From Pocillopora verrucosa (Eukaryota > Cnidaria > Anthozoa > Scleractinia > Pocilloporidae), in assembly GCF_036669915.1 (NCBI RefSeq), contig NC_089320.1:5885491-5949490 (forward strand): a stretch of DNA of 64,000 nt. Direction: 5' to 3'. A program made the translations under genes and the position numbers. Position 1 is the first letter of the stretch, and every line of letters starts with the position of its first letter. Under the pieces are notes generated by a model. The model was not told the DNA's origin. It saw only the letters and a program-made list of their open reading frames with translations, and did not search any database. Shown piece by piece: positions 18,515 to 63,112 of this stretch.

Positions 18515-19633
18515 TTAATTTGAAGTAAATACTCTTCTTAGAGTCAAAATTACCTTTCCTATCTTTTTATGAACGTTTTGCAGAACTCTTTTGACCTCGT
18601 CCTCGTACCACTGCGGATTGATGAATAACCCATTTTCACACATTTTGCACTGCTGACCGTACAGCCTGAACCTCAAGGAGTCTAAGAAGGAAAAAAAAAG
18701 TTCATTTTTTGTCAATAATGCATCGTAAAAAGAATGAATAGATTTACCAAGAGAGAAAGAATTCTCATGCCTAACATATTGTTTCAACAACTGAATCCCA
18801 GTTGAGGTCTTCCTTCATAAGTCATCCCTTTATGTTGTAAGGGAAACTAAACACAGATGTTTTTGACAAGCGAATGGCGACCTGAAAGCCTCTACTACTT
18901 CCAGCGCACTTTGACATCAACCAATCTACTGCAAAGCGCTTCTTTTAGCCTCTTAAACTAAATAATTTAAACCACGTATCTTTTCTTAAGCCCCTCGTTT
19001 CTTAGTTTTTCCTCGTTTTTATCGGATAAAGGGAAAGTACGTTTTATGTGTCTCGCTACCCCTAGAATATTCTGGAGGAAATGGACATTGCCTGAGGTGT
19101 CCACCTGAGCAAAATTCTTGAATCAGGATCGGTTAAATCTAGTAATTGATGTAAGAACGGAATTGATCTAAAAAGGACTCAAAGTGGATTAACTCAAAGT
19201 GACAGTGTCTGTCAAGAGACTATAAACTCGTGTGTTTGTATGATAGATTCAACGAATTAATCAGCAAAATTTTCTTTCGTTTAAACATAAATTTCTTACA
19301 TTTGTTTGTCTCCTTCGGTTCATCTTTTTGTCCTTCGTCACTTGTGCATTTTTCTTCTTCCGTCTTCAATTCTTTCTTGTTGTTTTTCTCGTCACTCCTC
19401 TTGTACCAAAATATAATCCTTCCCATCATTGACGTCCAGGAGTTTCCGCAATCACAGAGAAACTTGACTTTGGCGCTATCCTTAAATTGTCTCCAATCTC
19501 TTAGCATTCCTCTGTCGGTCGGCTCCAGTGTCCACTCGTCCGGTCTGAAAACCTGGAAGATGCGATCAAAGGTTGCATGCCAAAATTCTGACAATTTCAG
19601 TTGCGGTGTAACGCCATCACCCCGTGAAGCCAT
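18515..19633 (-). CDS. RTP-like (3CxxC-type zinc finger) protein, copy B, complete
   Basis: Two coding exons: 19633-19300 (MASRGD start) and 18681-18515. They are joined in phase 1 across an AAAT|gtaaga donor and a ccttcttag acceptor, which makes the junction KETNKY|SLRFRLYGQQC. The predicted protein is 166 residues, shorter than vertebrate RTPs (usually above 200) and without a C-terminal membrane segment. Family features: FWHATFDRIFQVFRPDEWTL, KVKFLCDCGNSW (C60, C62), a Lys/Glu-rich linker, GQQCKMC, and the helix WYEDEVKRVLQNVHKKIG. The start is the MASRGD methionine shared with copy A. An alternative Met 17 codons upstream exists, but a polypyrimidine-cag acceptor just before it suggests that stretch is 5' UTR from an upstream exon. 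About 3.4 kb separates this gene from the first GTPase coding exon, and the two are divergently transcribed. Confidence 0.85.
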
Positions 19634-19689
19634 GTTAGACGTTATAGCTGATTTACAAAGCAACGCAGGATTGTCTTCCTTCAACTGAA

Positions 19690-20960
19690 AAAAAAATTGG
19701 AAAATTAAAGACTCTGGTGAAGATTAAAATTTGTTTAAATGAATGGAAATAAAAACTACCTGTCTAGTTTTCTCGTTTTTATTTCAATAGCAATCTGCCC
19801 TGTTTTGCACGGCTTTTATAACTGGCTTTACACCAATCTTAACTAGTGTAATCTAGAAAGGTACGGTTTCCTGTTTGATTAATTACACGTAACAGTAAAT
19901 TTTGTACTTTCGGCTTTTTACCTACGATAGCTAACGGTGCACTTCCGGTCTGCGAGGCTGTATTCTTATGCCTATCTCATCCTTCGTCGGTATTTGTTTT
20001 TAAAAGACACCTACATTTATTGCTTAGCCGAGATTAAAAAAGGGAACGTTTCTAATTAAAATCTATTTTGCTGCCCGATGGAAAGCTTCGATCGTAGATG
20101 TAAAGTGCGTGTCTTCACATCGCCGTGGTTTTTCTCATTGTATGAATTAATTATTAGGTAATGACAACATCGAACTTGTGTTCAACTCAAATAAATACTT
20201 TGACTTTGAAACCTGAGTTAAGAAATTAGCTAAACTAAATATTCACCACCTATCTCTGTGATTCACAGAATTACGGGTCTCGAATTACCTCTTACCTTGC
20301 TATTTGAGGTTTCGGTTTATTCCAGTAGAGAGCGTCGATGCCGGAGCTTTCAGATCCAGTCGGCTAGACACAAATTTTCTGGGTTAAATTCAAATTACTT
20401 TCACCTGGATTTGCTGTAGACAGTAATGTGCCAAATTTTTTTCCTCTTGTTTTAACGTAGCTGCCACTCTCGATCGCTGAATTATAACTATGATATTTGC
20501 TAAGTACGATCGATGATGTTATTTATACGGTCTCGATTTCCGGTTACTAAGAAAAGCTCTGATTCCGGGAAAATACCGCTGGGGTTTCCCTCTTCTCTTC
20601 TCCTCTAGAATGTGTGAGGATATCAGCTAGGAGCTGTTTAACTCATCTGATTGGCTAGTGGCTTTTAGGAAGGAGTGCCGTTTTTAAAATGTATAACAAC
20701 TTGTATTATTTGTTTTGGTGTAGTTTCTACACTAGATCGCTGAATAATAACTATGATATTAGCCAAGAACGATGACGTTATTTATACGAGTTCGATTTCC
20801 AATTACTTAGAAAAGCCCTGATTCCGGAAAAACAACGCTGGGGTTTTCCCTGGTCTCTTCTCTATTTGAATGTGTGATGACGGCAGCTGGTAACTGTTAA
20901 ACGCATGATTGGCTTATAGGAGGGAGTTTCGTTTTGAATATCAACTTGAATTTCCGACAA
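19690..20960. repeat. Duplicated 5' flank of RTP copy B
   Basis: Collinear with the copy A flank at 860-2010. Within it, about 20440-20700 and 20705-20950 are a further direct duplication: both contain the 'GATCGCTGAATAATAACTAT' block, a GATTTCCxxTTACT block and an AGCTGxxAxCTGTTxAAC block. Copy A has this segment once. Confidence 0.65.
20310..20319 (-). promoter_or_regulatory. IRF/ISRE-like motif (one mismatch) upstream of RTP copy B
   Basis: The minus strand reads TAAACCGAAA, where copy A has GAAACCGAAA at the same place. The AANNGAAA inner core is kept. It is next to a CAAG-gtaaga donor-like site, as in copy A. Candidate only. Confidence 0.3.
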
Positions 20961-23012: not shown

Positions 23013-26000
23013 ATGTCTGGTGAAGTCACCGAAACACCTGTCGCAAAATATGGCCAAAGTAGTGAATTTGGCGTCGTTCTTGACTTTATTCAAAGAATGA
23101 TAAGTAACGACACTTTACGCCAAGCCTTCAACATTCCACATCTGGTCATGGTCGGTCGGCAAAACATGGCAAAAACCACTCTGATAAACCGTCTGATCGG
23201 GCGATATCTTCTCCCAATGCGCCGCAATGAAACCGCGAACACCTTACAGGCCCGCACTACATATCCCATAATACTCAACCTAAGAAACGGCAAGAGGAGC
23301 CTAGTGGAGGTTAAATGCGATATACCGGGTATTGGGGGGGCTGTGGAGAATCCTAAGGATGATACCGTGGAGACATTTCTTAACCAAATCACAGCACATT
23401 TACCAAAGGAAGAGGGAACTCCAATTTCGAAAACCCCTGTTAATGTTACTTTGCAAGGTAAGATATATTAATTTAACTAGAATTCAGATTTCACATATCG
23501 ATCTCATTTAAAGAGATCGATATGTGAATATCGTTGTCGTTTTATCATAGCAGATAGCAGTTCGCATTGAGTGAATGTGAAATAAACGAGAAGTTTTTTA
23601 ACTGCTTTTTGTTTCCTGCCAGTCTTGAAAATTCCTTCATTCAATTCTATAGAAGTTCTAAGTCCATTCTGAAATTTAAACTTAATATATCTTGCACTGT
23701 TCAGATCATTTCGACTTCGTACTCTTTCCTCTTCTCCAGGCCCCGAATTCACGACTCTTACCTTGGTCGACCTTCCTGGCGCTCATTTTGCCAATGACGA
23801 TCCACGCATGAACCTCGTCACTCAAAATTTAGTTTTGGAATACATCGAGAAAAACACTAACAGCATTATCGTCATAGTATCTGAAGTAGGGGACCCCACA
23901 GGTGACAGTGCAATAAACCTTGTCATGCAAAAGGCCCCAGATTTTAGGAGCCGCACAATCTGTGCACTTACCAAGCCAGATAAGTTGAGAGAATCCGATG
24001 ATATGGGGAAAAGGGTGGCCATGAATGGATCCAGCTTCACACTGGATGATAACCGATTCATTGTACTGCGAGGTAAAATATGATTGTTCAGTTTGTTCCA
24101 CTTTGAAATGAGTCCATAACTTAGCTTACACCAGTAGTTAGGGACTTGTAAGGTATTAGTTAAAACGTTCTTCTACTGAGGGTCGCAAAAGCATAGCTAA
24201 AGTAGTCACATCGCTTCCTGATGACAAGGGAAATATCACAATATCCCCTGCAATAAGAACAAGGGCAAACACGTGTAATAACCTGAAGAGTGGAAAACAC
24301 AAGAAACCAAGGAGTCACGATTGGTAGTCTGGCACCTGATTGATCGAGGGTGTGTTTTTTGTAACCAATCCAGCTCGAAGGGCAGTGAGACGAAACGAAA
24401 GAAATACATGATTTCTTTCTCCGGGAAAACTTGATCTACTGGACAGGAATGTATTTTGTGTGATTCAGGTCTAATTTAATTCGATAAAATTTATGGGCGT
24501 TTCTTCAGCTTTTTCTTCAATATAACATTCAGGGAAAGATGGCACAGATCCAAAAGAGAAGGACTGGGACGCTGAAACGACTCGTGTTCAAGAAAAACTA
24601 TGGTTTGCGCGGCATCCTCAGTACAAGGACATTCAACATGTCTGTGGAATTGATCGACTCATGGACACCATGATCTCTTTACTGGCTGAAAAGATGATCA
24701 CAGAAATTCCTATTCTGGTGACACAAATGAGGAGGCGAAAAAAAGAGGTTACAAAATCGTTTGTTAGAAGGGATTTTTTGATTACTGCCAGGCTAGCACC
24801 ATTGGGAGACCACTGGAAATTTTTGCAAAAAGCTGACCGCTCGAGCCTCACCCGGACCAGGACTCACGGTCTTAAGGGAAAATTTTATTGGTTGTCGAAA
24901 ATAATCCAAATTTTCTCTGTTTTTTTTTTCCTCTGTGTTTAGTGATTGGCATTATCGCTCCTAGATCCGTAACCACCTGATGAATGATAATGTGATAATG
25001 ATAGTGTCGTGTCTTAGTATCACAACTTTTTGATCCAATAAGGTGGACGATATACTTGAGGAACTAGAGGACAGCGAGGTACCAGAATCGAGCGAAGGCA
25101 AGGGTGGAGTGGCCATGAAACTGAAAGAAAATCTAATAAGAGAGTTAAATAAACTTCTTTTCAATAATACTTCTAACACAGCTGGAGGGGAGCGTGTCAG
25201 GCAGCTGTTTAATTCATTTCACCAGGAAGTTTTCAGGGTGAGTGTCTTTGGCTTATAGTCTTTAGTGTCTTGTTATAGGTGAGTAGTCATTTATCACAAA
25301 GTGATGGGCGAAAATTTTACTTATAGTACGATATATAAGGGAAATTTAACTTATTCTAAATAACGATAATAATAATTATTTTAAAATAAAGCACTTAGAA
25401 CAATCCTGGCATTCAATTGTTTTTAATTTTAGCTTTCCAAGTTACACTCGTTCGTGAATTATACTTGTAGGTGAAGAAAGAACTACTTAGTCAAACATCT
25501 TCTTATACATCACTGAAAGCACGACTTTTACGATCGGCATGAATACAGTACAAAGCACTCAGAAAGACTCCAGCATTCAATTGTTTCTTTTTTCAGCCTT
25601 TCCGATCATACTTGCAGGTGTAGTAAGAGCTACTTGAGTCAGACATCTTTGTTAACCACAGGAACAAAGAACAGAGCAAAAAAAAACCTAAATTTTCCCA
25701 GAGCTCCAACTATGAATAGAAATTGAATTCATGGTCTAAAACTCTTTCAAAAGGGGAAATTGGGCATGAGATACGCCGAACTAAAGCATTGGCTAAGGGA
25801 GTTATTATCACCTTTTTTTGGATAAAATTTGTCACAGGTGGATCCTTTGGAGTTGCGTAATGACGATGAAATACGAAGACAACAAAGAAAATTGGAGGGC
25901 GTGGCTGCCCCTCTTGGAGACAGCAGTGAAAACAGTCAGCTGCTGCAGAGGCTTCTGTATGAGAAGTATACAGGTATTAACTAAGAGCTTCTTAAACTTT

Positions 26001-28242
26001 CTGTAACAAAACATTTGTTTCTGGTTAAGCTAATTTGGAAAATTTCAGGGTAGGAGGCTGAAAAGCTCATAGTAAATATTCCTTTCATAGAGTTATTTTC
26101 GTCCCGTTTCTGGATAGTGCAATTTTCAATGAGTGTCGAAAGTGTTCTAAATTTTAAAGTAGACCCCCCCCTCTGGGTACACTATTGGGACTTGAAAAAG
26201 TGCCTCATGAATGGAGTTTTCCCTTCAATGAAGATAACACGTTTAAAGGTTATTTAGTGGATGCTCATTTCAGGTTACATTTCGGGGCGCGGAAAAGCTT
26301 CCCTTTAATTTAAGTGTACTTTCAATAAACTTTAGAGGAAGAAAAGTCATACCTTGGCCCCTCTCTCAAGGGTATACCTTTGGTTCTGAAATAATGTCCC
26401 CTTAATATAGGTGTCATAAAGGTAAGTTCTTAGACTGTTTTTCAATGGAACGATGCAGTCAATCACTTTTCTGTTTTTTCGATAGGAGTACAAGCCAATG
26501 GTAAACCAATCACGCTTCTGAGCCCAGTTGATAGGTTGCTACCCCTGTCAGAGAATCTTGTCAGAAATGTCGAGGCAACTTTGCGAGATATCGTCCAAAA
26601 GGCTATCGAACAAGCCTTGTCGAAGTTTCCCACACTCAAACAAGCAGTTGAAGCGAAAGTTGTCAGCAAGATTTTTGACAAGAAACGCGAACAGACTACG
26701 GAATTCATCCGACAATTCCTTGAAATGCAGAAAAAGAGCACTGATATCGTTTTCGCCCCAATCCCCACACCTCGAGAGATCAGCGTCTGGGAAGGGTTTC
26801 CTCTGGTAGATCGTAGTAAGCCTCATCCATGCATGACGTCAAAGACGACAAGTCATATGAAGTACCTTGCGAAAAATCTCTACCCTGAGAAGCTGCTTAA
26901 AGAGATAGACGGTTCTGGGTCACACAGTCTCATGTATAAGGTGAGAACTGAGAACGTTTAGGGTAATTTGCATGATGGAAACTGTAACCGAAGTCATGCG
27001 TAATTGTGTTCATCATTTTATTTAAAACATCCATACGCCTACGGTACTAAACACGAGTAGGAAAATACATTTTGGAGAACGGAAAGTTACAAATAAACTC
27101 ACAATAAAGAGAAATATTTACCATAACGGTGCATAGCTTTATTGGCGAAAAACGAAAACGATAACGCTGCTTCTTGAAAAGTGGACGTAAACATTGATCC
27201 CTATGAATTAATTTATACACAAAACTTACAAATTACTCGACGTAATTACGTAACATTACGCAACGGTACAAACAGCACCATAAGTACACAAAATAACTGA
27301 TGAAACGTACCAACACTCGAAGGTAATTAATTCGCACAGAAAACAGCATGGTGAAAAGTTTCGCGATTATAGAAAGCCTCTCGAGCTTAAGTCCAGTTTC
27401 TTTAAATAGAGCAAATTTAAATGGCCAATTACTAGTCGCTTGCTTACTTAGACACTTTCTGATCCACTGCTGGTTGTTGTAAGGTAAGATTATGATATAA
27501 AAGTTTTTAAACTGACATTGTAGCAGCGTGCTAATGCGTGGGTTGAAGCCTCCTATCAGTTGGGGATGGGTTTGGCAGAATTTTCGATAGATGGTGAAAA
27601 TTGCCGTCGGTCCTTACTCTGGACGAACAACATTTAAATTTCTTTTATGTGTTCAGTTTAAAGTAACGCTACTTCTTGTAAGCTTTGCGCACAAAATTGG
27701 AATATGTGGGTATCCCTTGATCAGAAAATGGCTAAACTGCAGAATACCCTGCTACTCATTTACATGTCACTGAATAAGAATAGCGTCTATTGTGTTATGC
27801 CTCGATCTTCAAAGCCTCCCGACACATATAAATGAGGTGGACCAAAGTGGCAGGGTATTCTGCAGTTACTCCAGCAAAATTTTCTATTAGAAAGACACTA
27901 TAGAAAGTTTTATCGTTCTTTCCCTAGGAACACGAGGAGATAAAGAATGTAAAAAGGAACGTGGTGCGATGCTTCAACGTGCTTAAAATGAATGTGTGTG
28001 ACACAGTCCCCCGCTGCATCCTGCATTTCTTCGTATCACAGTTAGTGGATGATCTTGACCGCGCTTTGGAGAAAGAAAACTTGGTTGAGTTCTTGGAGGA
28101 AAGGAAGGACATCCGGGACAAGCGCATCCTGTGTAGGAAACAGTCCCTCGCTTTAGAGAACGCGCTGCCACATACACAAGACGTCCTGCATAAACTACTG
28201 CGCATGAAACAGGGATCTCCCCAAAAGGACCGGAAGATGTAA
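23013..28242 (+). CDS. Mx/dynamin-like GTPase, copy 1
   Basis: Large dynamin-superfamily GTPase, predicted 697 residues. Exons: 23013-23457, 23740-24072, 24533-24747, 25043-25237, 25838-25973, 26486-26940, 27928-28242, all in phase with no stops. GTPase domain: G1 GRQNMAKTTL (A53, K54), switch threonines in ARTTYP (82-83), G3 DLPG (159-162), G4 TKPD (226-229; TKPD is the Mx form, dynamins usually have TKLD). Residues 260-593 form a helical stalk and 594-697 a GED-like end (RCFNVLKMNVCDTVPRCILHFF). No PH or transmembrane segment is seen, which fits Mx-like rather than endocytic dynamin. Oddities: Gly before the P-loop Lys is Ala; exon 1 differs at CDIPGIGGAVENPKDD; the exon 3 donor is GAG|gttaca, weaker than in the other copies. 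A cytoplasmic, self-assembling role is inferred from the family. Confidence 0.85.
23491..23527. repeat. Perfect hairpin in intron 1 of copy 1
   Basis: 15-bp perfect arms, TCACATATCGATCTC and GAGATCGATATGTGA, with a 7-nt loop. Copies 2 and 3 have only the left half with changes, so the hairpin is specific to copy 1. Confidence 0.8.
27735..27867. repeat. MITE-like foldback in intron 6 of GTPase copy 1
   Basis: 18-bp perfect terminal inverted repeats, AACTGCAGAATACCCTGC and GCAGGGTATTCTGCAGTT, 97 bp apart. The same element sits at the same place in copy 2 (38546-38678) and is absent from copy 3. Confidence 0.75.
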
Positions 28243-28765
28243 CTGAATAGAATGTTTTCATTACTTAGCCTTTTCAAGAAATAATTATCTAGCTTAGGGT
28301 TTCTTTTAATTTTCGTATAAAATTCTGAATATCATGACCATACCCGGTTGCAATAGGTATAATTTAAAAATTCATTTAGTTATAAACATTTTATGTGTAT
28401 TCTTTGAAGGAGTTAGTTCTGAATTATGCTGAACGTAATAGCGTTAGTCAATTTTCAAAATTTTTTTCATATAAGTACTAGTGAGCTGCACACAGCAACA
28501 AATCTTAGTTTACTTTTTAAAATGATTTTTAAAGAAGTATTAAACTCTTCCTTATTAACTCTTTGATTTTTAAACTTAGTAGCGTTTAGAATCAGAGCCA
28601 GGTGCTCATTTTTAATTATACTATCTCACGCTCTAAGGGGAACATTTAAAAAGCTCAACATAGCTTCCTGAGATCTTTACCATCATAATATTTGGAAAGT
28701 TAGCAGATCTAAATGTAATGCACCAACTGAAAGACAAATGAATTGTCAGTCATTCAAAAGGAAAC

Positions 28766-28771
28766 AATAAA
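28766..28771 (+). terminator. Candidate polyadenylation signal, GTPase copy 1
   Basis: AATAAA in the conserved context GAAACAATAAAGGCAAGTT, about 525 bp past the stop codon. The same context occurs after copies 2 and 3. Confidence 0.4.
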
Positions 28772-29184
28772 GGCAAGTTTAGCAGTGTGGAGTAAACCAT
28801 AGTCTCTGTGTGGACTCTTCTCTCCAATAACTGAGAGAGTAGATCATTGGTAGACGTGCTAGTAAACGTTGGGTTTTAGCCACCTATCTACTTTACCAGG
28901 TTTTCCGCGAAATTTTAAAACGAGGGAAGCTTTTACCAGCGTCCTCTGTGTTTACGGTGCCTCGTGTGAAGGTCATGTGTCCAAGATCTCCAACTTCTGA
29001 GGGTAAATATTGAGTGTCTTAACAGGGGTGGGTGTTTGTTTTATCATAACTTAGGTTCTTGAAATTTAATTCCTGTTTAAACCTTTGGAGACAGGAGATT
29101 CCCCACAATAGCCCTATTGAGGACACTACTTTTGTAATTACCGTGGTTAGACGTGATTTTCATTTTATAATTGTTTTCTCAAAA
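28772..29184. other. Shared 3' flank of GTPase copy 1
   Basis: Continues to match the flank of copy 2 (39593-40020), so the duplication unit runs well past the gene. No gene seen. Confidence 0.5.
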
Positions 29185-31025
29185 CGTCATCTTCCACATA
29201 CGATAGGGGCGGCAGTTTAGGTGAGTTTTCACATCGAGCACAACTTCGCTCACCTCTGACCACGTTAGCATTCCTCCACCAATTACTTTGTAGAAAGTGC
29301 GTTTAAAGAGGCCCACCATGCGCTCCAAACTAGCCGCCCCACCAGGGTGCTCGGCTCAGGTTGAATCTCCATGTGATCTTCTCCGATGCTAGGTAACCTT
29401 GCATCTGCTTGTCTTTCTGGATTTCTTTCATCGGTTTTGTCGCTCCCACAAAAGTCCTTTCATTGTCTGAGAGAATCTTCGAAGGTCGTCCTTGTTCAGC
29501 GATGAAACGTTTTAGGCTTGGCATGAGGGTAGTGGTTTCTAGATTTGGTAAGACTTCTAGGTACAAGGCTTTCGTTAGACTGCAGGCATAAAGCACCAAT
29601 CAATTTCTTATGTTGTGAGAGGACCCTTTGTTCTACTTGCTCTTATTTCTCTAGCATTTTTCCCAGTATGAGTTCTTGGCAATAAGTTCGTCGAGCTCAT
29701 CGTCAGATTTCACGGCCAAACAGCTCCTTTTTAGTTTTCGCCTCTCGGTTGGATTCCTTACTGGGTGCGGTGACAAGGTTTATTGACCATTTCCTAGGGT
29801 CACTAAGCCACTCAGTGGTCCACTCCGTCATAGTTGGTTCCCTTTAGATACCAGTCCACCACGGCTGGCAAGATCTGCAGAATTATTTTTAGTTGGTACT
29901 TGCCGTCAGCTAACCTCAACATGCTTTCTAATCTTCCGTACTCGGTTAGCCATAAACTGCTCGTAGTCTCCTCCGCCTAATATCCAATGTAAGGTAACGC
30001 TGCTGTGGAGCCAACAGTGTAGGGAAGTTACTGGGAAACCTTGAAGCGCGTCTTGCACGTTTCTCAAAAGGTTCACAGCTATGTGAACAGAGATCAGTTC
30101 TCGGCGAGGTATAGTTAGTACTTGCTTTGCTAGTCTTTGATTCTTACCGTCCAACCAATGAAACGGCAGTGCATCTCGGTCTTGCTCGCGGATACGCGCT
30201 TGGAGAAATGCCTTGCGAATATCGCCAGAGAGGGCCATTGCATGAAACATTCCCCTTAGAAGTACTTTTCAGAGCTGGCTTTGTAGGGGTGGTCCACCTT
30301 CTAGGCAGTCGTTTAGGGAGGGAACTAAGTCAAGCTCTTGCTGAGGCATCGTACACAATCCGCATCTTAGCAGTTTCGGCGCTCTCTTTTACGACGGCCT
30401 TGTGGGGGATGTAGAATTTTCGTTCAATTGCTGGCATCTCTGCTTCTTCTGTAACTCCTTCCTGTAGCTGTTCTTGAATGATTGCATCATACTTGTCAAG
30501 CTTTCCTGTTTTCTTTAGTCGTTGGACTAAACTTCCGAGTCGCTTCAGGCTTCCCGATTTGTTGGAGGGTAATAGAGGATGATCTCTTTTCCAGGGAAGG
30601 CCGGTCTCTTACCAGCTTTTAGGGCTGCAGCTCAGCTGTTCGAGGAATTCTCCACACACCACGCTCTGATTCCCATTAGTTTGGTCTTCAAAGTCTAAAG
30701 ACGTCCATGCGGCAGAGCTCTTCATAACTGGTTGAAGTCGTCCGGGTTAAGAACATGCTGTCAAGGTTTTGCTCCGTCCCGGTCACTTGCACGTTGTAGG
30801 TTTCAGTTCGCTTGGTAACAGTGCCCACAATAGTTTTTATTCGGTGCGTGAGAGTGCATGACGGTGCACAATTTTCCTTAAAGCTTCTCCATAGCGGGCT
30901 ATTTTTTCATTGCTTCCACAACTGCGTTAGTCTCCCTGCGCGTTAGAACAAAAAGTTGAAGCTCGGCATCGAGAGCCTTTAGTTTAGGTTCTATAGTTGG
31001 TGCCGTCGGAGATGCCATTAATGTG
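29185..31025 (-). mobile_element. Degenerate BEL/Pao LTR-retrotransposon
   Basis: On the minus strand, pieces occur in the BEL/Pao order. A gag-like start (MASPTAPTIEPKLKALDAEL) lies near 31017. Reverse transcriptase follows, with FYIPHKAVVKESAETAKMRIVYDASA at about 30330-30410 and SGDIRKAFLQARIREQDRDALPFHW at about 30150-30230. The integrase core (YACSLTKALYLEVLPNLETTT, LSDNERTFVGA) and its C-terminal end (LERMVGLFKRTFYKVIGGG) occupy about 29600-29185. Stops and frameshifts interrupt every part and most of gag-protease is gone. No clear LTR pair was found. It lies between GTPase copies 1 and 2. Confidence 0.75.
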
Positions 31026-31225
31026 GGGAATAGGTAAGGAACCCACAATGTCGCTTTTCTCTTCCAGATTTTTCATTCTTTTTTTTTAGATTCTCTCCAT
31101 TGATTTTAGGTTCTATAAAGGGTCCCGTCGGAGATGCCATTAATGTGGGGAATAGGTAAGGAACCCACACTGTCGCTTTTCTCTTCCCTTTTTTTCATTC
31201 TCTTTTTTTAGATTCTCTCGCATGC
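30989..31225. repeat. Tandem duplication of about 118 bp
   Basis: Two direct copies starting at TTAGGTTCTATA (about 30989 and 31108). Both contain GGAGATGCCATTAATGTGGG and end in a T-rich tract with GATTCTCTC. It overlaps the 5' end of the BEL/Pao remnant, so the duplication happened after or during its decay. Confidence 0.65.
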
Positions 31226-31879
31226 ACAACAAATTATCTCAGACTGACTAAAACTACAATCAACTGCTCCTTTATCGTATGGACACACCTTGATCAAACG
31301 TAAGCTGATTGTCTTTAAAAGATCTTTCAGACAAAAGATAAACAAACTCATTCATTAGAGCAGACAGAACGTACGCTTGATTTCCGGCTAGATATTCCAC
31401 AATTATTACATCAACTTAACTTCAATCAATACTAGTAATGCTGTTTCCGATATTGCCGCAATGAATCGCGAAATCGCGCGCTGGATTTGTAGCCGCCCGG
31501 TCATTTTGAGCTTGGATTTTTCGCTTCTCGGATCGGGCGTTCGGAAATGGAGCGTACAACTTTGTCCTTCTCTTGTGTAGTAAACCTAGAAATGAATAAC
31601 TCGCTAAAATGGCTTCTTTTCAACATAGTAAGCGGTCAGGTGACAAGCGATGCTCTGTAGAAGTAAGGTGAGGTATTGTTATTGAGAATTTGACTGTATT
31701 TTTTTAATTCATAGGAGCGGTCGTAAATATTTTCCTTCAAACTCTTATAATTTCGCCATGAATCTTATTTCGCAAGATGATCATTATACAGCTGGAGCTT
31801 GGGCCGCCTGTTGTTTGCTTGCTAGGTATATCACAGTGCGTTGCTATGTGGTATCCAAGCAGGTGATGAAGTCCTGCAA

Positions 31880-31986
31880 AGAGCCTATTCAGTCGTTCAC
31901 TTAAATCAAGGTGTTTCCCGGCAGGAAATTGACTATTCCGCACGGTTCAACCTTAAAACAGTTTTTACGTGTCCGCGTAAGAAAAG
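31880..31986 (+). other. Candidate 5' non-coding exon of GTPase copy 2
   Basis: Matches the candidate leader exons of copies 1 and 3 and ends at a good donor (AAAAG|gtaagg at 31987). The predicted intron runs to the acceptor just before 34201. Confidence 0.45.
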
Positions 31987-32189
31987 GTAAGGCAACTAAC
32001 TGATAAGAGTGTTACATAATTGACTATAGTTTCTAGTCGCCCACATTGTAAAATACCACAAATTATTTCAAATGCGAGTGCATATCAGAACTTAGGCAGC
32101 TGGTCTTTGACGATTGAAATGAGTGTTTTAGTCTTTCCAGTTAAACCAAGTTAAAGCAATTCGTCGCCCTTCTTAACCATGAATCCTCT

Positions 32190-33210
32190 TCGAAGGTATC
32201 AAATTTCAACATCGATCGGCCTTCCGTGGTTCAGGAGTGCTTATGAAGCTGTTATGGAACCTATATATACTAACAGCGTCTAGTTATTATAGTAGGAGTC
32301 CTTTCAGCCGTCGTTCTGCTGAAAATATTACTCGTTGGATTCAACTTTTGCAATGTAAACAAGCACACTTGTTCATAAACAGAAGCTACGGTTCTTACAT
32401 TTGATTGAGGTTTTTAAATGAAAGAGGTCGTGAATCTATTTCGGAAAGACGAAACCGATAATTTTCTTTAACAATGAACTCACTTCAATCTGAGGGTAAC
32501 CTATCTAATTGCAAAATGCGCGGATTAAATTTACCACGAAGGGAACCAAAATTTAAACATAACTCAGTTGAATCTGAGGGCAGCTTTATCATCGTTTTAA
32601 TTATTAATTCCTTAATTAATCCGCGTAAAGGAAACATAATCTTTTTTACAGTATATATGCAGGCGCAGACGCAATTCCAAAATGCGCCAACTAAAATTTA
32701 TCGCGAGGGAACTAAATCTTAAGCTAGATTTACCTATCGTTGAGCGAAAATTTACTAAAGGTATATAACAATGTGCACAACTGTGAAGAATTGTCTCTTC
32801 AAGCGTCATGTTCTCCGAAGTCTTCATAATTAAATTATCAAACCTTTGCGAAATTAAATCTTAAACAGATGTCAGAGCCGTAGCTTCTGTTTATGAACAA
32901 ATGACCTTGTTTGCATTGCGAAAATTGAATCATACGGGTAATATTTTCAGCAGAACGACGGCTGAAAGATTCTATTATAATGGCCAGACAATATTAGTAT
33001 ACAAAGACTCTATAGCTATAACAGCTTGACAAGCACTTCTGAAAGACCGATCGATGTTGAAGTTTAATACCTTCAATACCTTCCGTCGGACCGCCTCTAG
33101 AGAGACTGCGTCTTAATTCACAGTTTTGCCCATTGTTATATACCATTAGTAAATTTTCGCCCAACTATACGCAAATCTAGCCTAAGATTTAGTTATCCTT
33201 GCGGTAAATC
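32190..33210. repeat. Inverted duplication inside predicted 5' intron of copy 2
   Basis: About 32190-32430 reappears inverted at about 32870-33070. The block between (about 32440-32830) is inverted relative to the orientation seen in copy 1, and a short piece of the original orientation follows (about 33110-33210). The intron RNA could fold into a long imperfect hairpin. Confidence 0.65.
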
Positions 33211-34210
33211 AAAAGGTCCAGAAAATGGCAAGCAAAAGTTCAACCAAACAAGACGAAGAAGCTCTTACGCATCTTTCGTGCTCTCCAAACTTCCCGCGTG
33301 CTTCATATCTCGATGAACGCACGCTGACATATGAACCAATTGTTAATTGTCGAAGAATCAAACGTGTACGACTGACCTTTCTTCCTATTCGCTAACACAA
33401 TGACAGTTCTGACAGTTGACTTTGAAATGGTTTCTGGGGCGCACACTCACTATAAAAACAAGCAATATTATTTCTGTTTTCTTTTTTTCGCGATTCGTGC
33501 GATATCGGTTTTCTGGCGCAATTTAACGCGAAATTCACGCGTCAGGTAGTGAGTTTTCCTGAACACATTTTTTGTATGTCATGAACTAAAAATACGGAAG
33601 CTCGCAAGTCGGATTTTTTTAACAAATTTTTCTGTTGCTCGATAGCACAATTTATTTACATTGGTTTTCGTTGTCGAAAACCAAACCTTAAATCTGTGAC
33701 TTTATTAAAGGTAGTCTGGAAATTTTACCACAAGGGTTGCCTAATAATACATTATAATATCCGTCGTCACAGTGGTCAAACTGTTGTGGACTCACAAGGC
33801 GCAGCCGAGTGAACGATTTGTTTTTTTTACCTCGGCATCAACGTCAAACAAAACGATTCTTTCAGTTCGTGGCCATTGCGTGACGCGTTGACGCGACAAC
33901 AGCAAATTGGCCAATCAGGCTTCGACATTACTCCCCTTTGTGGCTAAAAAAAAAATGAAACAATAAAAAAAACGTTTACCTGATCCCCCATAAGACCCTG
34001 TGCTATGCAATGCCCCCTTCCTCACTCATCAGCAGTTAATTGGCGGTCATTTTTCACAGTCCCCCTTTTAACTCTTTGGTGAAACTGATCTTCATCTCTG
34101 CCCCATGAAAAACATGTGACCCCATAAAAGATTCCCTTCCCCCCTACCGCCCGGGGATAAATAAGGACTGACCCCTCAATTGTCTGTTGCATCATTGCAG
34201 ATAGTAAACC

Positions 34211-37200
34211 ATGTCTGGTGAAGTCATCGCAACACCTGTTGCGAAATATGGCCGAAGTAGTGAATTTGGCGTCGTTCTTGACTTCATTCAAACTATGATA
34301 AGTGACGATACTTTACGCCAAGCCTTCAACATTCCACATCTGGTCATGGTCGGTCGGCAAAACATGGCAAAAACCACTCTGATAAACCGTCTGATCGGGC
34401 GATATCTTCTCCCAATGCGCCGCAATGAAACCGCAAACACCTTACAGGCCCGCACTACATATCCCATAATACTCAACCTAAGAAACGGCGAGAAGAGCCT
34501 CGTGGAGGTGAAATGCGATCTACTGGGTCTAAGGGAAGCCGCGGAAAATCCCAAGGATGATGCCGTGGAGACATTTCTTAACCAAGTCACAGCACATTTA
34601 CCGAAGGAAGAGGGAACTCCAATTTCGAAAACCCCTGTTAATGTTACTCTGCAAGGTAAGATATATTATTTTAACTAGAATTCAGATTTCACATATCGAA
34701 ATCATTTAAAGGTCCTTTTTTCCCTGCCAGTCTTGCAAATTCTTCATTCAACTTTATAGAAGTTCCAAGTTCATTCTGAAATTTAACTTATCTTGAACTG
34801 TTGAAGTATTGAAGTAATTTCGACTTCGTGCTCTTTCCTCTTCCTCAGGCCCTGAATTCACGACTCTTACCTTGGTCGACCTTCCCGGCGCTCATTTTGC
34901 CAATGACGATCTACGCATGAATCTCGTCACTCAAGATTTAGTTTTGGAATACATCGAGAAAAACACTAACAGCATTATTGTCATAGTATCTGAAGTAGGG
35001 GACCCCACAGGTGACAGTGCAATAAACCTTGTCATGCAAAAGGCCCCAGATTTTAGGAGCCGCACAATCTGTGCGCTTACCAAGCCAGATAAGTTGAGAG
35101 AATCCGATGACATGGGGAAAAGGGTGGCCATGAATGGATCCAGCTTCACACTGGATGATAACCGATTTATTGTACTGCGAGGTAAAATATGATTGTTCAG
35201 TGAGTTTAACTTTGAAATGCGTCGATAGCTTAGCTTACTCCAGTAGTTAGGTTCCTCTACTGAGGGTCGCAAAAGCATAGCTTTAGTAGTCACATCGCTT
35301 ATTGATAGTAAGAAATATATCAGAGGATATCAAAGCTAATGCAGGGTTTGGAGTAATTTTTCCATAAGCGGCGATAGTGTAATGGGCGGCTGTGCTGTAA
35401 GATGAAACCCAGACACGAGAGCTCGATCGCAGGCTGAACAAGGGGAGGGGAGTAAGACCGCCATTTTTAACTGGCTTTTATGAAAACGCTGCAATAAGAA
35501 CAAGGGTAAACACGTAAACACAAACCAAGGAGTTACGATTGGTATAGTCTGGCATCTGATTGATCGAGGGTGTGGCTCCATATTTTTTTTGTAACCAACC
35601 CCTGCGTGGAGTGAGTCAAAAACGAAAGAAATATATGATTTCTTTCTACACGTAAAGAGAGCGGGAAAACTCGAACCATTGAACAGGAATGTATTTGGTG
35701 TAATTCTGGTCTAATTTAATTTGAAAGCATCTAGGGATGTTATAGGAAAAATAGCCTATAGCCTTCGGATTTCTTTTCAATATAACATTAAGGGAAAGAT
35801 GGCACAGATCCAGCTGAGAAGGACTGGGACGCTGAAACGACACGTGTCCATGAAAAAGAATGGTTTGCGCGGCATCCTCAGTACAAGGACATTCAACATG
35901 TCTGTGGAATTGATCGACTCATGGATACTATGATCTCTTTACTGGCTGAGAAGATGATCACAGAGATTCCTATTCTGGTGACACTAATGAAGAAGCGAAA
36001 AAAAGAGGTAAGAAAGTCGCTTACAAGTAATCATTATTTTATCATTGCCAGGTTAGCACTCGTTTTTCTCCATTATATTTAGTATTTTTTATAATCGCCC
36101 CTAGATCCGTAACCACTTGATGAATGATGATGTGTGTATTATGTGAGCAACAGAAAATGACAATATTTTCTGGTGTCATGTCTCAATATCACAACTTTTT
36201 GATCCAATAAGGTGGATGAAACACTTGTAGAACTAGAGGACAGTGAGGTACCAGAGTCGAACGAAGGCAAGGGTGGAGTGGCCATGAAACTGAAAGAAAG
36301 TCTAATTAGAGAGTTAAATATTCTTCTTTTCAACAATACTTCTGACACGGCCGGAGGGGAACGCGTCAGGCATCTGTTTAATTCATTTCATCAGGAAGTT
36401 TTCAAGGTGAGTGTCTTTGACATCTTGCTTCGTCTTAAAGTCTTAAATGTCTGTTTATGAACGAGTTGTCATTGTTGTGAAATTTTTGTGGCGATGGGTT
36501 TATTTACATAACACTATGTCACAGAATTTTTTCATTCTACTTAGTCTTGTATTTTCCTGAATCTGTTTGAATATTCTAGCGGTCTCATTGCATATTTTTA
36601 AACATACATGCGGTGTTAATCTTCTGACCCATCTAAAAGCTTGACGTGTACTGTCAGCATACATGCAGTACAGAGGACTAAGACCAATCCCTGCTTTAAA
36701 TAGTTCTTTTATCCCAGCCTTCCAAATTAAACTTGAAGCTGTAAATTGAATTATTTGAGTAAAACATCTTTGTGAACCATATGAACAAAGAGAGGAAACC
36801 ATCATAGGCCTCGAATTCGCATTTGCGAGCTCTCTCAATGAACAAAGATGCTCTTAGAGATCCAAATATGTCTTAATTATGAAAGCAAAAGGAATTCATG
36901 GTCTAGACCCTTTCAAAACGAGCCATCGAGACACGCTAAACTAAAACAGTGGCTATGCAAGTGATTATAACATTTTGGATAAAATTTGTCACAGGTGAAT
37001 CCTCTGGAGATGCGTAATGACGATGAAATACGAAGACAAAAAAGAAAATTGGAGGGTGTGGCTGCCCCTCTTGGAGACAGCAGTGAAAACAGTCAGCTGC
37101 TGCAGAGGCTTCTGTATGAGAAGTATACAGGTATTTGAGAACTAAGCCACTCTTAACAGAGTTGTTATGAGAAATCAAATGTTCTTGGGAAAACCAACAA

Positions 37201-39053
37201 GATACCATGAGATTAGAAGGCTGTACACCAGTTTAAAAAACCTCAATGCTAACATTTGTTCTCTTCTACATATCAAAGGATCCAATGCCAATGGTAAACC
37301 TGTAACGCGTAAGGGTCCAGTTGATCAGTTACTACCCCTGTCAGAGAATCTTGTCGGTAACGTCGAGACAACTCTACGAGATATTGTCCAACGGGCCATC
37401 GAAAAAACCTTGTCAAAGTTCCCAACTCTCAAACAAGCTGTTGAAGCGAAAGTCGTCAGCAAGATTTTTGACAAGAAACGCGAACAGACCACGGAATTCA
37501 TCCGACAATTCCTTGAAATGCAGAAAAAGAGCACCGATATCGTTTTCGCCCCAATCCCCACACCTCGAGAGATCAGTGTCTGGGAAGGGTTTCCTCTGGT
37601 AGATCGTAGTAAGCCTCATCCATGCATGACGTCAAAGACGACAAGTCATATGAAGTACCTTGCGAAAAATCTCTACCCTGAGACGCTGCTTCAAGAGATA
37701 GACGGTTCTGGGTCACACAGTCTCATGTATAAGGTGAGAACTGAGAACTTTTAGGGTAATTTGCATGATTGAAACTGTAACCGAAGTCATGCGTAATCGT
37801 GTTCATCTTTTTAATTTATTTAAAACATTAATACGCCTACGATACTAAACACGAGTAGGAAAATACATTTTAGAGAACGGAAAGTTACAAATAAACTCAC
37901 AATAAAGAGAAATATTTACCATAACAGTGCATAGCTTTATTGGCCAAAAACGAAAACGATAACGCTGCTTCTTGAAAAGTGGACGTAAACATTGATCCCT
38001 ATGAATTAATTTATACATAAAACTTACAAATTACTCGACGTAATTACGTAACATTAAGCAACGATACAAACAGCACCATAAGTACACAAAATAACTGATG
38101 AAACGTACCAACACTCGAAGGTAATTAACGCGTAAACGAAATTCACACAGAAAACAGCATGGTGATAAGTTTCGCGATTATAGAAACCCTCTCGAGCTTA
38201 AGTCCAGTTTCTTTAAATAGAGTAAATTTAAATGGCCATTGAGTAGTCGCTTGCTCACTTAGACACTTTCTGATCCACTGCTGGTTGTTGTAAGGTAAGA
38301 TTATGATATAAAAGTTTTTTAATTGACATTGTAACAGCGTGCTAATGCGTGGGTTGAAGCCTCTTATCAGTTGGGGATGGGTTTGGCGGAATGTTCGTTA
38401 TATGGTGAAAATTGTCGTCGGTCCTTACTCTGGACAAACAACATTTAAATGTCTTTTATGTGTTCAGTTTAAAGTAACGCTACTTCTTCTAATCTTTGCG
38501 CACAAAATTGGAATATGTGGGTATCCCTTGATCAGAAAATGGCTAAACTGCAGAATACCCTGCTACTCATTTACATGTCACTGAATAAGAATAGCGTCTA
38601 TTGTGTTATGCCTCGATCTTCAAAGCCTCCCGACACATATAAATGAGGTGGACCAAAGTGGCAGGGTATTCTGCAGTTACTCCTGCAAAATTTTCTATTA
38701 GAAAGACACTATAGAAAGTTTTATCGTTCTTTCCCTAGGAACAGGAGGAGATAAAGAATGTAAAAAGGAACGTGGTGCGATGCTTCAACGTGCTTAAAAT
38801 GAATGTGTGTGACACAGTCCCCCGCTGCATCCTGCATTTCTTCGTATCACAGTTAGTGGATGATCTTGACCGCGCTTTGGAGAAAGAAAACTTGGTCGAG
38901 TTCTTGGAGGAAAGGAAGGACATCCGGGACAAGCGCATCCTGTGTAGGAAACAGTCCCTCGCTTTGGAGAAAGCGCTGCCACATACACAAGACGTCCTGG
39001 ATAAACTACTGCGCATGAAACAGGGATCTCCCCAAAAGGACCGGAGAATGTAG
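34211..39053 (+). CDS. Mx/dynamin-like GTPase, copy 2
   Basis: Second intact paralogue, 697 residues. Exons: 34211-34655, 34849-35181, 35793-36007, 36212-36406, 36995-37130, 37279-37733, 38739-39053; lengths and phases are identical to copy 1. Motifs: GRQNMAKTTL with the same Gly-to-Ala P-loop change, DLPG, TKPD, a helical stalk and a GED-like end (EQEEIKNVKRNVVRCF). The exon 3 donor is a good gtaaga. Intron 5 is only 148 bp (512 bp in copy 1) and its acceptor region differs, so exon 6 starts GSNANGKPVTRKGPVD instead of GVQANGKPITLLSPVD. From the middle of exon 6 through intron 6 it is almost the same as copy 1, whereas introns 2-3 look more like copy 3. The function is inferred from the family: a self-assembling GTPase, possibly antiviral. 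Confidence 0.85.
38546..38678. repeat. MITE-like foldback in intron 6 of GTPase copy 2
   Basis: Same element, same site and same 18-bp arms as 27735-27867 in copy 1, so it was inherited through duplication or conversion rather than inserted independently. Confidence 0.75.
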
Positions 39054-44229: not shown

Positions 44230-47200
44230 ATGTCTAGTGAAGTCACCGAAACACCTGTTGCGAAATATGGCCGAACTACTGAGTTTGGTGTTGTTCTTGA
44301 CTTTATTCAAACTTTGATAAGTGACGACACTTTACGCCAAGCCTTCAACATTCCACATCTGGTCGTGGTCGGTCGGCAAAACATGGGAAAAACCACTCTG
44401 ATAAACCGTCTGATTGGGCGAAATCTTCTCCCAATGCGCCGCAATGAAACCGCAAACACCTTACAGGCCCGCACTACATGTCCCATAATACTCAACATAA
44501 GAAATGCCGAGAAGAGCCTCGTGGAGGTTAGATGCGATCTAAATGGTCTTCGGGAGGCTGAGGAAAATCCAAAGGATGATGCCGTGGAGGAGTTTCTTGA
44601 CAAAGTCACAGAAAATTTAGCGAAGGAAGAGGGAACTCTAATTTCGAAAACTCCTGTTAATGTTACTCTGCAAGGTGAGATTAATTTAACTAGAATTCAG
44701 ATTTCACGTATCGATGTCATTTAAGCATCCTTTTACTGTAGCAGATAGCAGTTCGTATTGAGTGAATATGAAATAAGAGAAACTTTTTTTTCACTGCTGT
44801 TTGTTTCCTGCCAGTCTTGAAAATTCCTTCATTCAGCTCTATAGAAGTTCCAAGTTCAGTCTGAAATTTAGACTTATCTTGCACTGTTCAAATTATTTCG
44901 ACTTCGTACTTTCTTCTTCCCCAGGTCCCGAATTCACGACTCTTACCTTGGTGGACCTTCCCGGCGCTCATTTCGCCAACGACGATCCACGCATGAACAT
45001 CGTGACTCAAGATCTAGTTTTGGAATACATCGAGAAAAACACTAACAGCATTATCGTCATAGTTTCCGAAGTAGGGGACCCCACAGGTGACAGTGCAATA
45101 AACCTTGTTATGCAAAAGGCCTCAGATTTTAGGAGCCGCACAATCTGTGCACTTACCAAACCAGATAAGTTGAGAGAATCCGATGACATGGGGAAAAAGG
45201 TGGCCATGAATGAATCCAGCTTCACACTGGATGATAACCGATTTATTGTACTGCGAGGTAAAATATGTTTGTCAGTTTGTTTAACTTTGAAACGAGTCGA
45301 TAGCTTAACTTACACCAGTAGTTAGGGACTTGTAAGGTATTATTTAAAATGTTCTCCTGCTGAGGGTTGCAAAATCATAGCTAAAGTAGTCACATCGCTT
45401 AGTGATAGTGAGGGAAATATCAGAGAATATCAGAGCTAATGTAGGGGTTTGGAGTAATTTTTCCATGAGCGGCGGTGGTTTGATGGGCGGCTGTGCTGTA
45501 AGATGAAACCTAGACACGAGAGCTCGATCGCAAGTTGAACAAGGGGGGGAGGGGGAAGACCGCCGGTTTTAACTGGCTTTTATTAAAACCCCTGCAATAA
45601 GAATAAGGGTAAACACGTATAAATACCGTGAAGAACGGAAAACACGAGAGACAAAGGAGTCACGATTGGTATAGTCTGGCATTTGATTGATCGAGAGTGT
45701 GGCTCGATATATTTTTTTTGTAACCAATCCCTGCGTGAAGTGAGTTAAAACGAACGAAATACATGATTTCTTTCTACACGTAAAGAGAGCGGGAAAACTT
45801 GAACCACTGAACAGGAATGTATTTCGTGTGATTCAGGTCTAATTTAGTTCGAAGACATGTAGGGATGTTATAGGTAAAATAGCCTATAGCCTTCGGCTTT
45901 CTTTTCAATATAACATTAAGGGAAAGATGGCACAGATCCAGCTGAGAAGGACTGGGACGCTGAAACGACACGTGTCCATGAAAAAGAATGGTTTGCACGG
46001 CATCCTCAGTACAAGGACATTCAACATGTTTGTGGAATTGATCGACTCATGGCCACCATGATCTCTTTACTGGCTAAAAAGATGATCACAGAGATTCCTA
46101 ATCTGGTAACACAAATGAAGAGGCGAGAAAAAGAAGTAAGGAAATCGTTTGTAAGAAAGGAATTATTTTATCATTGCCAGGTTAGCACTTTTGGGAGACC
46201 ACTGGAAATCAAAGAATGACCGCTCGAGCCTCACTCGGACCAGTACTCAGGGTCTCAAGGCAAAATTTGCTATCGGGTGTCGATATTAATCCTAAACTTC
46301 ACTGGGTTTTCTCCATTGTATTTAGTGATTGGTATAATCGCTCCGTAACCACTTGATGAATGATAATGTCTGCATTATGTAAGCAACACGAATATGACAA
46401 TATTGTCTAGTTTCGTGTCTCAATTTAATATCACAATTTTTCGATCCAATAAGGTGGATGATACACTGGTAGAACTAGAGAGGTGTGAGGTACCAGAGTC
46501 GAGCGAAGGCAAGGGCGGAGTGGCCATGAAACTGAAAGAAAATCTAATAAGAGAGTTAAATAAACTTCTTTTCAACAATACTTCTGACACAGCTGGAGGG
46601 GAACGCGTCAGGCAGCTGTTTAATTCATTCCATCGAGAAGTTTTCAAGGTGATTGTTTTTGGGTTATAGTCTGTAGTGTCGAGGTATAGATGAGTAGTCA
46701 CTTATCACAGAGTGTTGGGCGAAAATTTTTCGTAAAGAACGATACGTAGCGGAAATTTAAGTCATTCTTAATAATGATAATAATAATTATTTTAGTATAA
46801 AGCACTTAGAACAATCCCAGCATTCAATTTTTTTTTTAGCTTTCCAAGTTATACTTGTTCGTGAATTATACTTGTAGGTGAAGAAAGAACTACTTGGTCA
46901 AACATCTTCTTATACATCACAAAGCACGACTTTTACGATTGGCATACATATAGTGCAGAGCAGTTAGAACGATCCTAGCATTCAATTGTTTTTTTCATAA
47001 AATTTGTCACAGGTGAATCCCTTGGAGATGCGTAATGACGATGAAATACGAAGACAACAAAGAAAGTTGGAGGGCGTAGCTGCTCCTCTTGGAGACAGCA
47101 GTGAAAACAGTCAGCTGCTACAGAGGCTTCTTTATGAGAAGTATACAGGTATTAACTAAGAGCTTCTTAAACTTTATTGAACAAAACATTTGTTTCTGGT

Positions 47201-62035: not shown

Positions 62036-63112
62036 TATACACGCTGAAAATGATTGAAGACTGGGAATAATTATTTCAACATGTTCCAGGCTGGGGTAGG
62101 GTTAGGTTTTTTCTCTCTTCTGTCTACCCTCACCGTGGCCGTGATCCAGCAGCTGGAATGCCAAAACACAATAAACAGCAGGTCATTTTTTTATCTTTAT
62201 TTTCCCACAACGATTAAAATTTTAACTCATATTGATTTGCCTTTCCACAAGATAACGCTATTAATCAAATCGCGCTTTGTGTATAAAGCTTAGCACTATT
62301 CATGAAATCCGTTTTGATACACCACAAACATTTCCATAGTCCATTTTTATTAAGATTTAGGAAGTCAAAACATGTGCTAAAGCGAAATAATTTATACTAG
62401 ACCATGTCATGAAACAATTAAAATGTTTGATGGACCGTGTGAAATTGTATAATAAACATTCTAAAAGATTTTTCTTTATTTACTGCCGAGTAAAGTTTCT
62501 TCAATTATTTTGAATGAACATTTATTGATTTATCATCTTCTGTTATTTGAATACTAAATCTGTGTCCTGAATCCCAGCTGCCTCAATAAACTGCCATATT
62601 TTGTACTAGTATGTGTAAAAAAATTTAATATGGATTTCGTTCTGCTGATTGCAAATAAAAAAGCTATGATTTCATTGGCTGGCGGGTGACACATAGGAGT
62701 ATATTTCTCGTCAAAGTCGACAGAAGAAAGGGTGTCTCATATGCCAGAACCATTAGCACAGCTTGCGCCTCGCTAATTGACAAACAGAAATACTCATTCG
62801 CTGAATTTTTAGTCATGTAAAGAATCCCTTAGAAAGGTATTCTGTGTCAGTTACGAGTTGGGAAGTACGCGCGGCATCTCGTATCGTTCACCCTTGATCG
62901 GTGTTGTTCATGCCTCTTCAGTCAAGAGCCTAAGTTATTATATGTCAAGTGCTGTGACAGTCTTCCTGATGAGTCACTTAAAAGAATTTTAAATTTCTCC
63001 TCTTGAAGACAACTTGTTTCGACAGCGGGAACTTGACAATCGATATACCTAATATCTTTTATTGCTGACCTCAATTTTCGCCAACTGTGGGTCAAATGCG
63101 AACGTTTCACGG
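62036..63112. other. Divergent intergenic region between WD40 and CUB genes
   Basis: About 1.1 kb separates the start codons of two head-to-head genes and must contain both promoters. No TATA box or known site could be assigned with confidence. Confidence 0.5.

Follow-up and report, generated by a model that had tools for sequence, protein, structure and literature searches.

Few residues of P-loop proteins vary as little as the glycine that directly precedes the lysine of the loop, and the alanine mutant of this glycine is a laboratory tool, a nucleotide-free guanosine triphosphatase (GTPase). We describe a locus of the coral Pocillopora verrucosa where the same exchange occurs naturally. 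A stretch of 64,000 nucleotides (assembly GCF_036669915.1, contig NC_089320.1, positions 5,885,491 to 5,949,490, forward strand; hereafter the window, to which coordinates refer unless a contig is named) carries three tandem dynamin-like genes, copies 1 to 3; the first two have alanine at this position and the third has glycine.

In a survey of the Walker A motif this glycine is position 6, adopts a left-handed (alpha-L) conformation and, among the surveyed structures, is exclusively Gly (PMC11959459). Rac1-G15A binds neither guanosine diphosphate (GDP) nor guanosine triphosphate (GTP), RhoG-G15A is used as a nucleotide-free form (PMC3253119), and Rho G17A is another nucleotide-free mutant in use (PMC3044157). 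These share with copies 1 and 2 the residue before the P-loop lysine and the Gly-to-Ala change, but they are engineered small GTPases for trapping exchange factors. In a dynamin-family GTPase, OPA1 G300E alters the same P-loop position: GTPase activity is impaired, liposome binding and tubulation are kept, and the mutant is cited as losing GTP binding (PMC7156267); added G300E s-Opa1 detaches particles tethered by l-Opa1 (PMC7299343). There the residue is an introduced glutamate, whereas copies 1 and 2 carry a natural, paralogue-specific alanine. At neighbouring P-loop sites, DNM1L K38A and S39A show no turnover (PMC3747075).

Degenerate members also occur as partners of intact ones. In the IRG family, GMS members (Irgm1-3) hold the GKS effectors GDP-bound and inactive (PMC4837601), so that GTPases with a variant P-loop keep paralogues with a normal one in check; such regulation has been demonstrated in IRG, whereas for our trio it is only inferred. 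Septin pseudoGTPases, of another GTPase family, are likewise degenerate paralogues in hetero-oligomers (PMC10731463). Human MX2 carrying K131A, a GTP-binding mutation, retains activity against human immunodeficiency virus type 1 (HIV-1) in several cell lines (PMC10986937). Mx and DRP1/DNM1L proteins resemble the trio in their order of Dynamin_N, Dynamin_M and GED with no PH match and in a length of ~700 residues; the difference is the alanine that stands for the P-loop glycine in copies 1 and 2.

Results

Residue 53, which directly precedes the P-loop lysine, is alanine in copies 1 and 2 and glycine in copy 3. The motif reads GRQNMAKTTL in copy 1 (23154-23183, plus strand; codon GCA at 23169-23171) and in copy 2 (34352-34381, plus strand; GCA at 34367-34369), and GRQNMGKTTL in copy 3 (44371-44400, plus strand; GGA at 44386-44388). 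When the window was scanned with a degenerate P-loop pattern, matches with zero mismatches were found at 23154, 34352 and 44371, all in exon 1; one more match, at 62360, carries 3 mismatches and is interrupted by a stop in the P-loop frame. The observed number of matches was reached in 0 of 100 shuffles. The other G-motif residues Q50, K54, T55, DLPG at 159-162 (G3, DxxG) and TKPD at 226-229 (G4, TKxD) are the same in all three copies. The initial annotation of this DNA had reported both the alanine/glycine difference and the retention of Lys, Thr, DLPG and TKPD, with which the exact pattern matches and in-frame motifs agree; the interval it marked takes in copies 1 and 2, and copy 3 lies outside.

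Copy 3 satisfies the G1 consensus GxxxxGK[ST], from which copies 1 and 2 deviate by the alanine; each of the two has a change in a key G-motif residue, one mark of a pseudoGTPase. Scored against the Dynamin_N profile (PF00350), exchanging glycine for alanine costs 7.4 bits in copy 3 (67.5 to 60.1) and 7.3 bits in copy 1 (59.8 to 52.5). Structures predicted from three sequences had a mean predicted local distance difference test score (pLDDT) of 44.5 for full-length copy 3 and 33.9 for copy-1 residues 1-331, values too low for a judgement on the P-loop.

The rarity of alanine was gauged on P-loops elsewhere in the genome (353.4 Mb in 52 contigs). A PF00350 search at an expectation value (E) of at most 0.001 gave 65 matches, of which 58 were fetched, leaving out copy 3 itself and six matches starting at profile position 35 or later. 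For 53 of the 58 a single rule read a P-loop with glycine; three matches that read ASDGSSKTT or nearly so (L040, L042, L044) were discarded as chance. By eye, L062 and L064 read GETSAGRNS (glycine kept, lysine and serine changed), L067 and L069 show SSGKSS at the exon start, and L072 lacks a P-loop of its own; the GSQSAGKSS of L073, about 1.8 kb upstream, was assigned to the gene of L072. The total for this set is glycine in 58 of 58, although its choice of matches carries a bias, since it missed copies 1 and 2, which score only E 0.18-0.19. A second set was drawn from the same profile at E <= 10 (127 matches): with copies 1 and 2 excluded, 51 further P-loop-reaching matches were fetched, and one of them duplicates the L073 site, leaving 50 (E 0.001 to 10), many of which are other P-loop nucleoside triphosphatases (e.g., ATP-binding-cassette type by look) and not dynamins. 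Here we read 47 glycines, 3 lysines (L080, L082, L083) and 0 alanines. Both sets together hold 105 Gly, 3 Lys and 0 Ala among 108 P-loops, which are not independent events; the glycine is thus almost invariant here, as had been claimed.

The three lysine-bearing P-loops belong to a Dynamin_N array on contig C6 (L080, C6:18841598-18841843; L082, C6:19021532-19021786; L083, C6:18908371-18908622). Their open frames have 126, 218 and 126 residues, respectively, and the motif is GERDSKKST or GERDPKKST, where other members of the array read GETSSGKST. L062 (C6:17299150-17299750; wider, L078) and L064 (C6:17275550-17276150; wider, L077) are part of a second C6 stretch of Dynamin_N exons, where GETSAGRNS compares with GETSAGKSS in the neighbours; the L064/L077 exon matches PF00350 at 34.4 bits. 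All these C6 variants were read from exon stretches with open frames.

The three genes lie in tandem on the same (plus) strand, each an open spliced model of seven coding exons. Copy 1 (23013-28242; exons 23013-23457, 23740-24072, 24533-24747, 25043-25237, 25838-25973, 26486-26940 and 27928-28242) and copy 2 (34211-39053; exons 34211-34655, 34849-35181, 35793-36007, 36212-36406, 36995-37130, 37279-37733 and 38739-39053) encode 697 residues each, and copy 3 (44230-48988; exons 44230-44674, 44925-45257, 45921-46135, 46454-46648, 47013-47148, 47648-48102 and 48671-48988) encodes 698. Exon lengths are equal across the copies except for one additional codon in exon 7 of copy 3. The 6 introns between coding exons are all GT..AG in each copy, and the only stop in each spliced model is the terminal one. 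Copies 1 and 2 are separated by 53 differences in 697 residues; copy 3 is 87-88% identical to them. Genome-wide protein searches with exon 1 of copy 1 and exon 2 of copy 3 recovered only copies 1-3 at the thresholds used, and therefore the trio has no close outgroup in its own genome. PF01031 and PF02212 genome searches found further loci only on C4 and C11. The counts from these exon and profile searches are lower bounds.

At exon 3 of copy 1 the splice donor (24748-24753) is GTTACA, where copy 2 has GTAAGA and copy 3 GTAAGG. Read-through at this donor would add 64 residues up to a stop at 24942, leaving a protein with the G domain and only the first part of the stalk.

The trio consists of tandem dynamin-like GTPases with the Mx/DRP-type domain order of G domain, stalk and GED. 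Scanned as whole proteins with Pfam, copy 3 matches PF00350 Dynamin_N (65.2 bits), PF01031 Dynamin_M (83.4) and PF02212 GED (34.8), and copy 1 matches them at 50.1, 84.8 and 32.3 bits, all over cut-offs; the G domain of copy 2, scanned by itself, scores 52.7 bits for Dynamin_N. In the genome-wide Dynamin_N search, only exon 1 of copy 3, among the three, passes the 27-bit cut-off of PF00350. A Pfam scan at E <= 0.1 gave no PH domain in copies 1 and 3. The order of G domain, stalk and GED without PH fits Mx, but it also fits DRP1-type proteins and is not decisive for the Mx clade.

Among proteins of solved structure, copy 3 has 43 distinct matches at E <= 0.1, 38 of them dynamin-family (Dynamin, Dynamin-1/3, DNM1L, Vps1, DRP1A, Mx1/Mx2 and Mgm1/OPA1) and 5 EngB/Der GTPases. 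Dynamin (6fgz), Dynamin-1/3 and DNM1L rank above Mx1/Mx2, and the stalk-GED part alone, at E <= 1, has 6 solved matches (Dynamin 6fgz, four DNM1L and Dynamin 3) with no Mx chain among them. Aligned with dynamin-1, copy 3 has asparagine at the first P-loop serine of dynamin-1, and its G5 is RGK versus NRS.

Outside the genome, when the copy-3 G domain was searched against a genome contig collection, 1 of 40 pattern matches was confirmed, a bacterial GTPase (Der/EngA-like by our own reading) with the P-loop GRQNMGKST; against viral contigs, 0 of 4 pattern matches were confirmed. The models returned by NCBIfam were bacterial GTPases apart from a single unrelated one, and none reached its cut-off. 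The main text of PMC11789081 never mentions cnidaria, coral, Acropora, Nematostella, Hydra or anthozoa, and among the literature matches listed there was no title on a cnidarian Mx protein. A P-loop variant like that of copies 1 and 2 may nonetheless have been published.

Copies 1 and 2 are kept, as whole genes, under purifying selection. Between them silent divergence (dS) is 0.154 and replacement divergence (dN) 0.039, a dN/dS of 0.25 (binomial p 7e-13 vs neutrality), with 0.23 in the G domain alone (p 3e-5); dN/dS is 0.27 for copies 1-3 and 0.26 for copies 2-3. Exon 2, which holds G3 and G4, is at 0.08-0.11 in every pair. A decayed pseudogene was considered and ruled out by the open frames, the 6 introns per copy and dN/dS of 0.25-0.27. 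The open frames, GT..AG introns and dN/dS of 0.25 uphold the view of the initial annotation that copies 1 and 2 are more than dead genes.

The P-loop is contained in a run of 125 base pairs (bp) without a single difference between copies 1 and 2 (23112-23236 in copy 1, plus strand), in which copy 3 shows 4 differences (at residues 46, 53 and 65, and one silent change at codon 62). From exon 1 through exon 2, copies 1 and 2 share no longer run (permutation p 0.014; 0.0016 for exon 1 alone; 5000 shuffles each). Codons 41-90, from the P-loop to switch I (23133-23282 in copy 1, plus strand), have 2 silent variable sites out of ~39 across the three copies, against 22 out of ~66 in the remaining exon 1 (Fisher p 6.5e-4); of 648 sliding 50-codon windows none has less silent divergence, the limits of the block having been set after inspection. 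Within it copies 1 and 2 differ from copy 3 at five residues (46, 53, 65, 84 and 90). The simplest reading is that codons 41-90 were recently homogenised among the copies and that the alanine and its neighbouring changes would have arisen afterwards; constraint on silent sites is an alternative cause. Positive selection in this block was considered, but the excess was not significant (5 replacement to 2 silent changes vs 6:17 in exon 2, Fisher p 0.068, with post hoc limits). Whole-gene dN/dS was rejected as proof of selection for the Ala form, because the alanine sits in a block with near-zero silent divergence.

A conversion or exchange tract spans the later half of exon 6 through exon 7 (26701-28242 in copy 1, plus strand), where copy 1 matches copy 2 at 1493 of 1542 aligned bases (96.8%) and copy 3 at 810 of 1088 (74.4%). 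Copies 1 and 3 pair in introns 4 and 5 and in exon 6 up to its middle, and intron 2 leans toward a pairing of copies 2 and 3. Such a mosaic indicates repeated gene conversion or exchange. The densest cluster of differences between copy 3 and copies 1/2, 16 of 61 in 60 of 698 columns, lies at residues 541-600 (end of exon 6 and start of exon 7, between stalk and GED), presumably roughly where Mx proteins have a fast-evolving loop.

In columns 1-150, copies 1 and 2 agree against copy 3 at 18 residues. Seven of the 18 were judged by eye on the dynamin-1 alignment: six match or resemble copy 3 (46, 53, 65, 93, 124 and 125), and one, residue 90, matches copies 1 and 2. Gly53 is therefore likely the ancestral state.

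Elsewhere in the window, a weak match to PF05380 (Pao retrotransposon peptidase family; 21.6 bits, cut-off 22.3) at 29906-30268 on the minus strand, between copies 1 and 2, is perhaps a retroelement remnant. An open frame at 63053-64000 (plus strand) has CUB domains (PF00431, 147.6 bits, three stretches) and leaves the window end. Two open frames of 151 and 167 residues on the minus strand, at 428-883 and 19220-19723, about 19 kb apart, look by eye like copies of one protein.

Discussion

The P-loop alanine of copies 1 and 2 is real and uncommon, and the locus is a case of a P-loop-degenerate dynamin-type paralogue standing beside its glycine control. We tentatively favor the following explanation, which rests on sequence comparison and on analogy. 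Copy 3 would keep the ancestral P-loop and is probably a working GTPase. One G-to-C change would have turned glycine into alanine in copies 1 and 2, shared by descent or gene conversion. A side chain at the alpha-L position of the phosphate-binding nest would deform the loop, and GTP binding would drop sharply. Since stalk, GED and the remainder of the G domain are intact, the Ala proteins should still fold and could enter copy-3 assemblies via the stalk, as catalytically silent and probably inhibitory subunits. The whole reading, with GTP-poor copies 1 and 2 as silent partners of copy 3, has in our judgement somewhat less than an even chance.

Its parts differ in strength. Loss of GTP binding is probable, because the same change leaves Rac1 and RhoG nucleotide-free and OPA1 G300E loses GTPase activity. 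The ability to co-assemble with copy 3 is evenly balanced. That copies 1 and 2 have been selected as a brake seems doubtful.

Several points weigh against this explanation. The literature searched held no case of this Gly-to-Ala change in a dynamin-family protein, and the glutamate of OPA1 G300E is harsher than alanine. Dynamins have a weak affinity for GTP and are not known to depend on an exchange factor, which makes the small-GTPase analogy imperfect. The changes at residues 46 and 65 could compensate for the alanine. In the G domain, 12 replacement and 10 silent changes fall on the copy-1 branch (p 0.017 vs neutrality), compared with 3 and 10 for copy 2, a weaker constraint on copy 1. Moreover, the alanine looks young and common to copies 1 and 2 through one event, and it may be too young to have been selected.

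The strongest rival explanation is a young loss of function. The alanine may be a recent damaging or near-neutral change spread by gene conversion, with copies 1 and 2 losing G-domain function and acquiring no new role. This is a distinct possibility and would fit the sequence nearly as well as silent partnership does; on this view the purifying selection of the past would predate the mutation. In the P-loop block, 5 replacements stand against a very low silent divergence across all the copies, and the 125-bp identity that holds the P-loop lies in a mosaic locus. Replacement-to-silent ratios are also higher in exon 1 than in exon 2 between copies 1 and 3 (34:16 vs 5:12, Fisher p 0.009) and between copies 2 and 3 (p 0.023), but not between copies 1 and 2 (p 0.25), and the exon-3 donor of copy 1 is atypical (GTTACA, against GTAAG in copies 2 and 3). 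Decay of this kind sits less easily with the open frames and GT..AG introns of all three copies. The low dN/dS of exon 2 in every pair argues against an old loss of nucleotide binding; a recent loss is unaffected by it.

Alternatively, the alanine may be tolerated: together with the changes at 46 and 65, which by eye look derived in copies 1 and 2 on the dynamin-1 alignment, the P-loop might still bind and hydrolyse GTP, perhaps with altered affinity. The kept Q50, K54, T55, DLPG and TKPD and the high constraint on exon 2 are consistent with this. We nevertheless consider it unlikely, as the position is described as an exclusively glycine, alpha-L site (PMC11959459), Rac1 and RhoG become nucleotide-free with G15A (PMC3253119), and none of the 108 other P-loops has alanine.

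Less likely still is a nucleotide-independent effector, e.g., a restriction factor that acts by binding only, as human MX2 may against HIV-1. The domain order is similar to that of MX2, whose K131A form stays active against the virus in several cell lines (PMC10986937). A sequence or assembly error at the residue-53 codon is very improbable, since both copies carry the same base although they diverge at 53 of their 697 residues, and the assembly has 52 contigs, those sampled being 17-37 Mb long.

The initial annotation had proposed that copies 1 and 2 may be nucleotide-binding variants or regulatory partners co-assembling with copy 3. This was a reasonable interpretation and is partly supported: the genes have been kept (dN/dS 0.25), but the young P-loop block weakens the idea of long-kept variants. 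In its fullest form, copies 1 and 2 would be kept GTP-blind subunits that co-assemble with the active copy 3 and restrain it, a GMS/GKS-like logic in the Mx/DRP branch; we regard this as speculative and rather unlikely. In GMS proteins it is the P-loop lysine that is replaced, by methionine, and the glycine is kept, unlike in copies 1 and 2. Since two further Dynamin_N arrays on C6 have P-loop-degenerate members, GTP-blind partners may be recurrent in tandem dynamin-type arrays of this genome.

Taken together, the alanine copies and the adjoining glycine copy, 87-88% identical to them, form a clean natural pair in which to ask whether dynamin-type assemblies may contain GTP-blind brakes or whether gene conversion merely spreads lesions through tandem GTPase arrays. 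Were the proposal true in its fullest form, copies 1 and 2 would be nature's own version of the nucleotide-free Gly-to-Ala mutant long used in the laboratory.

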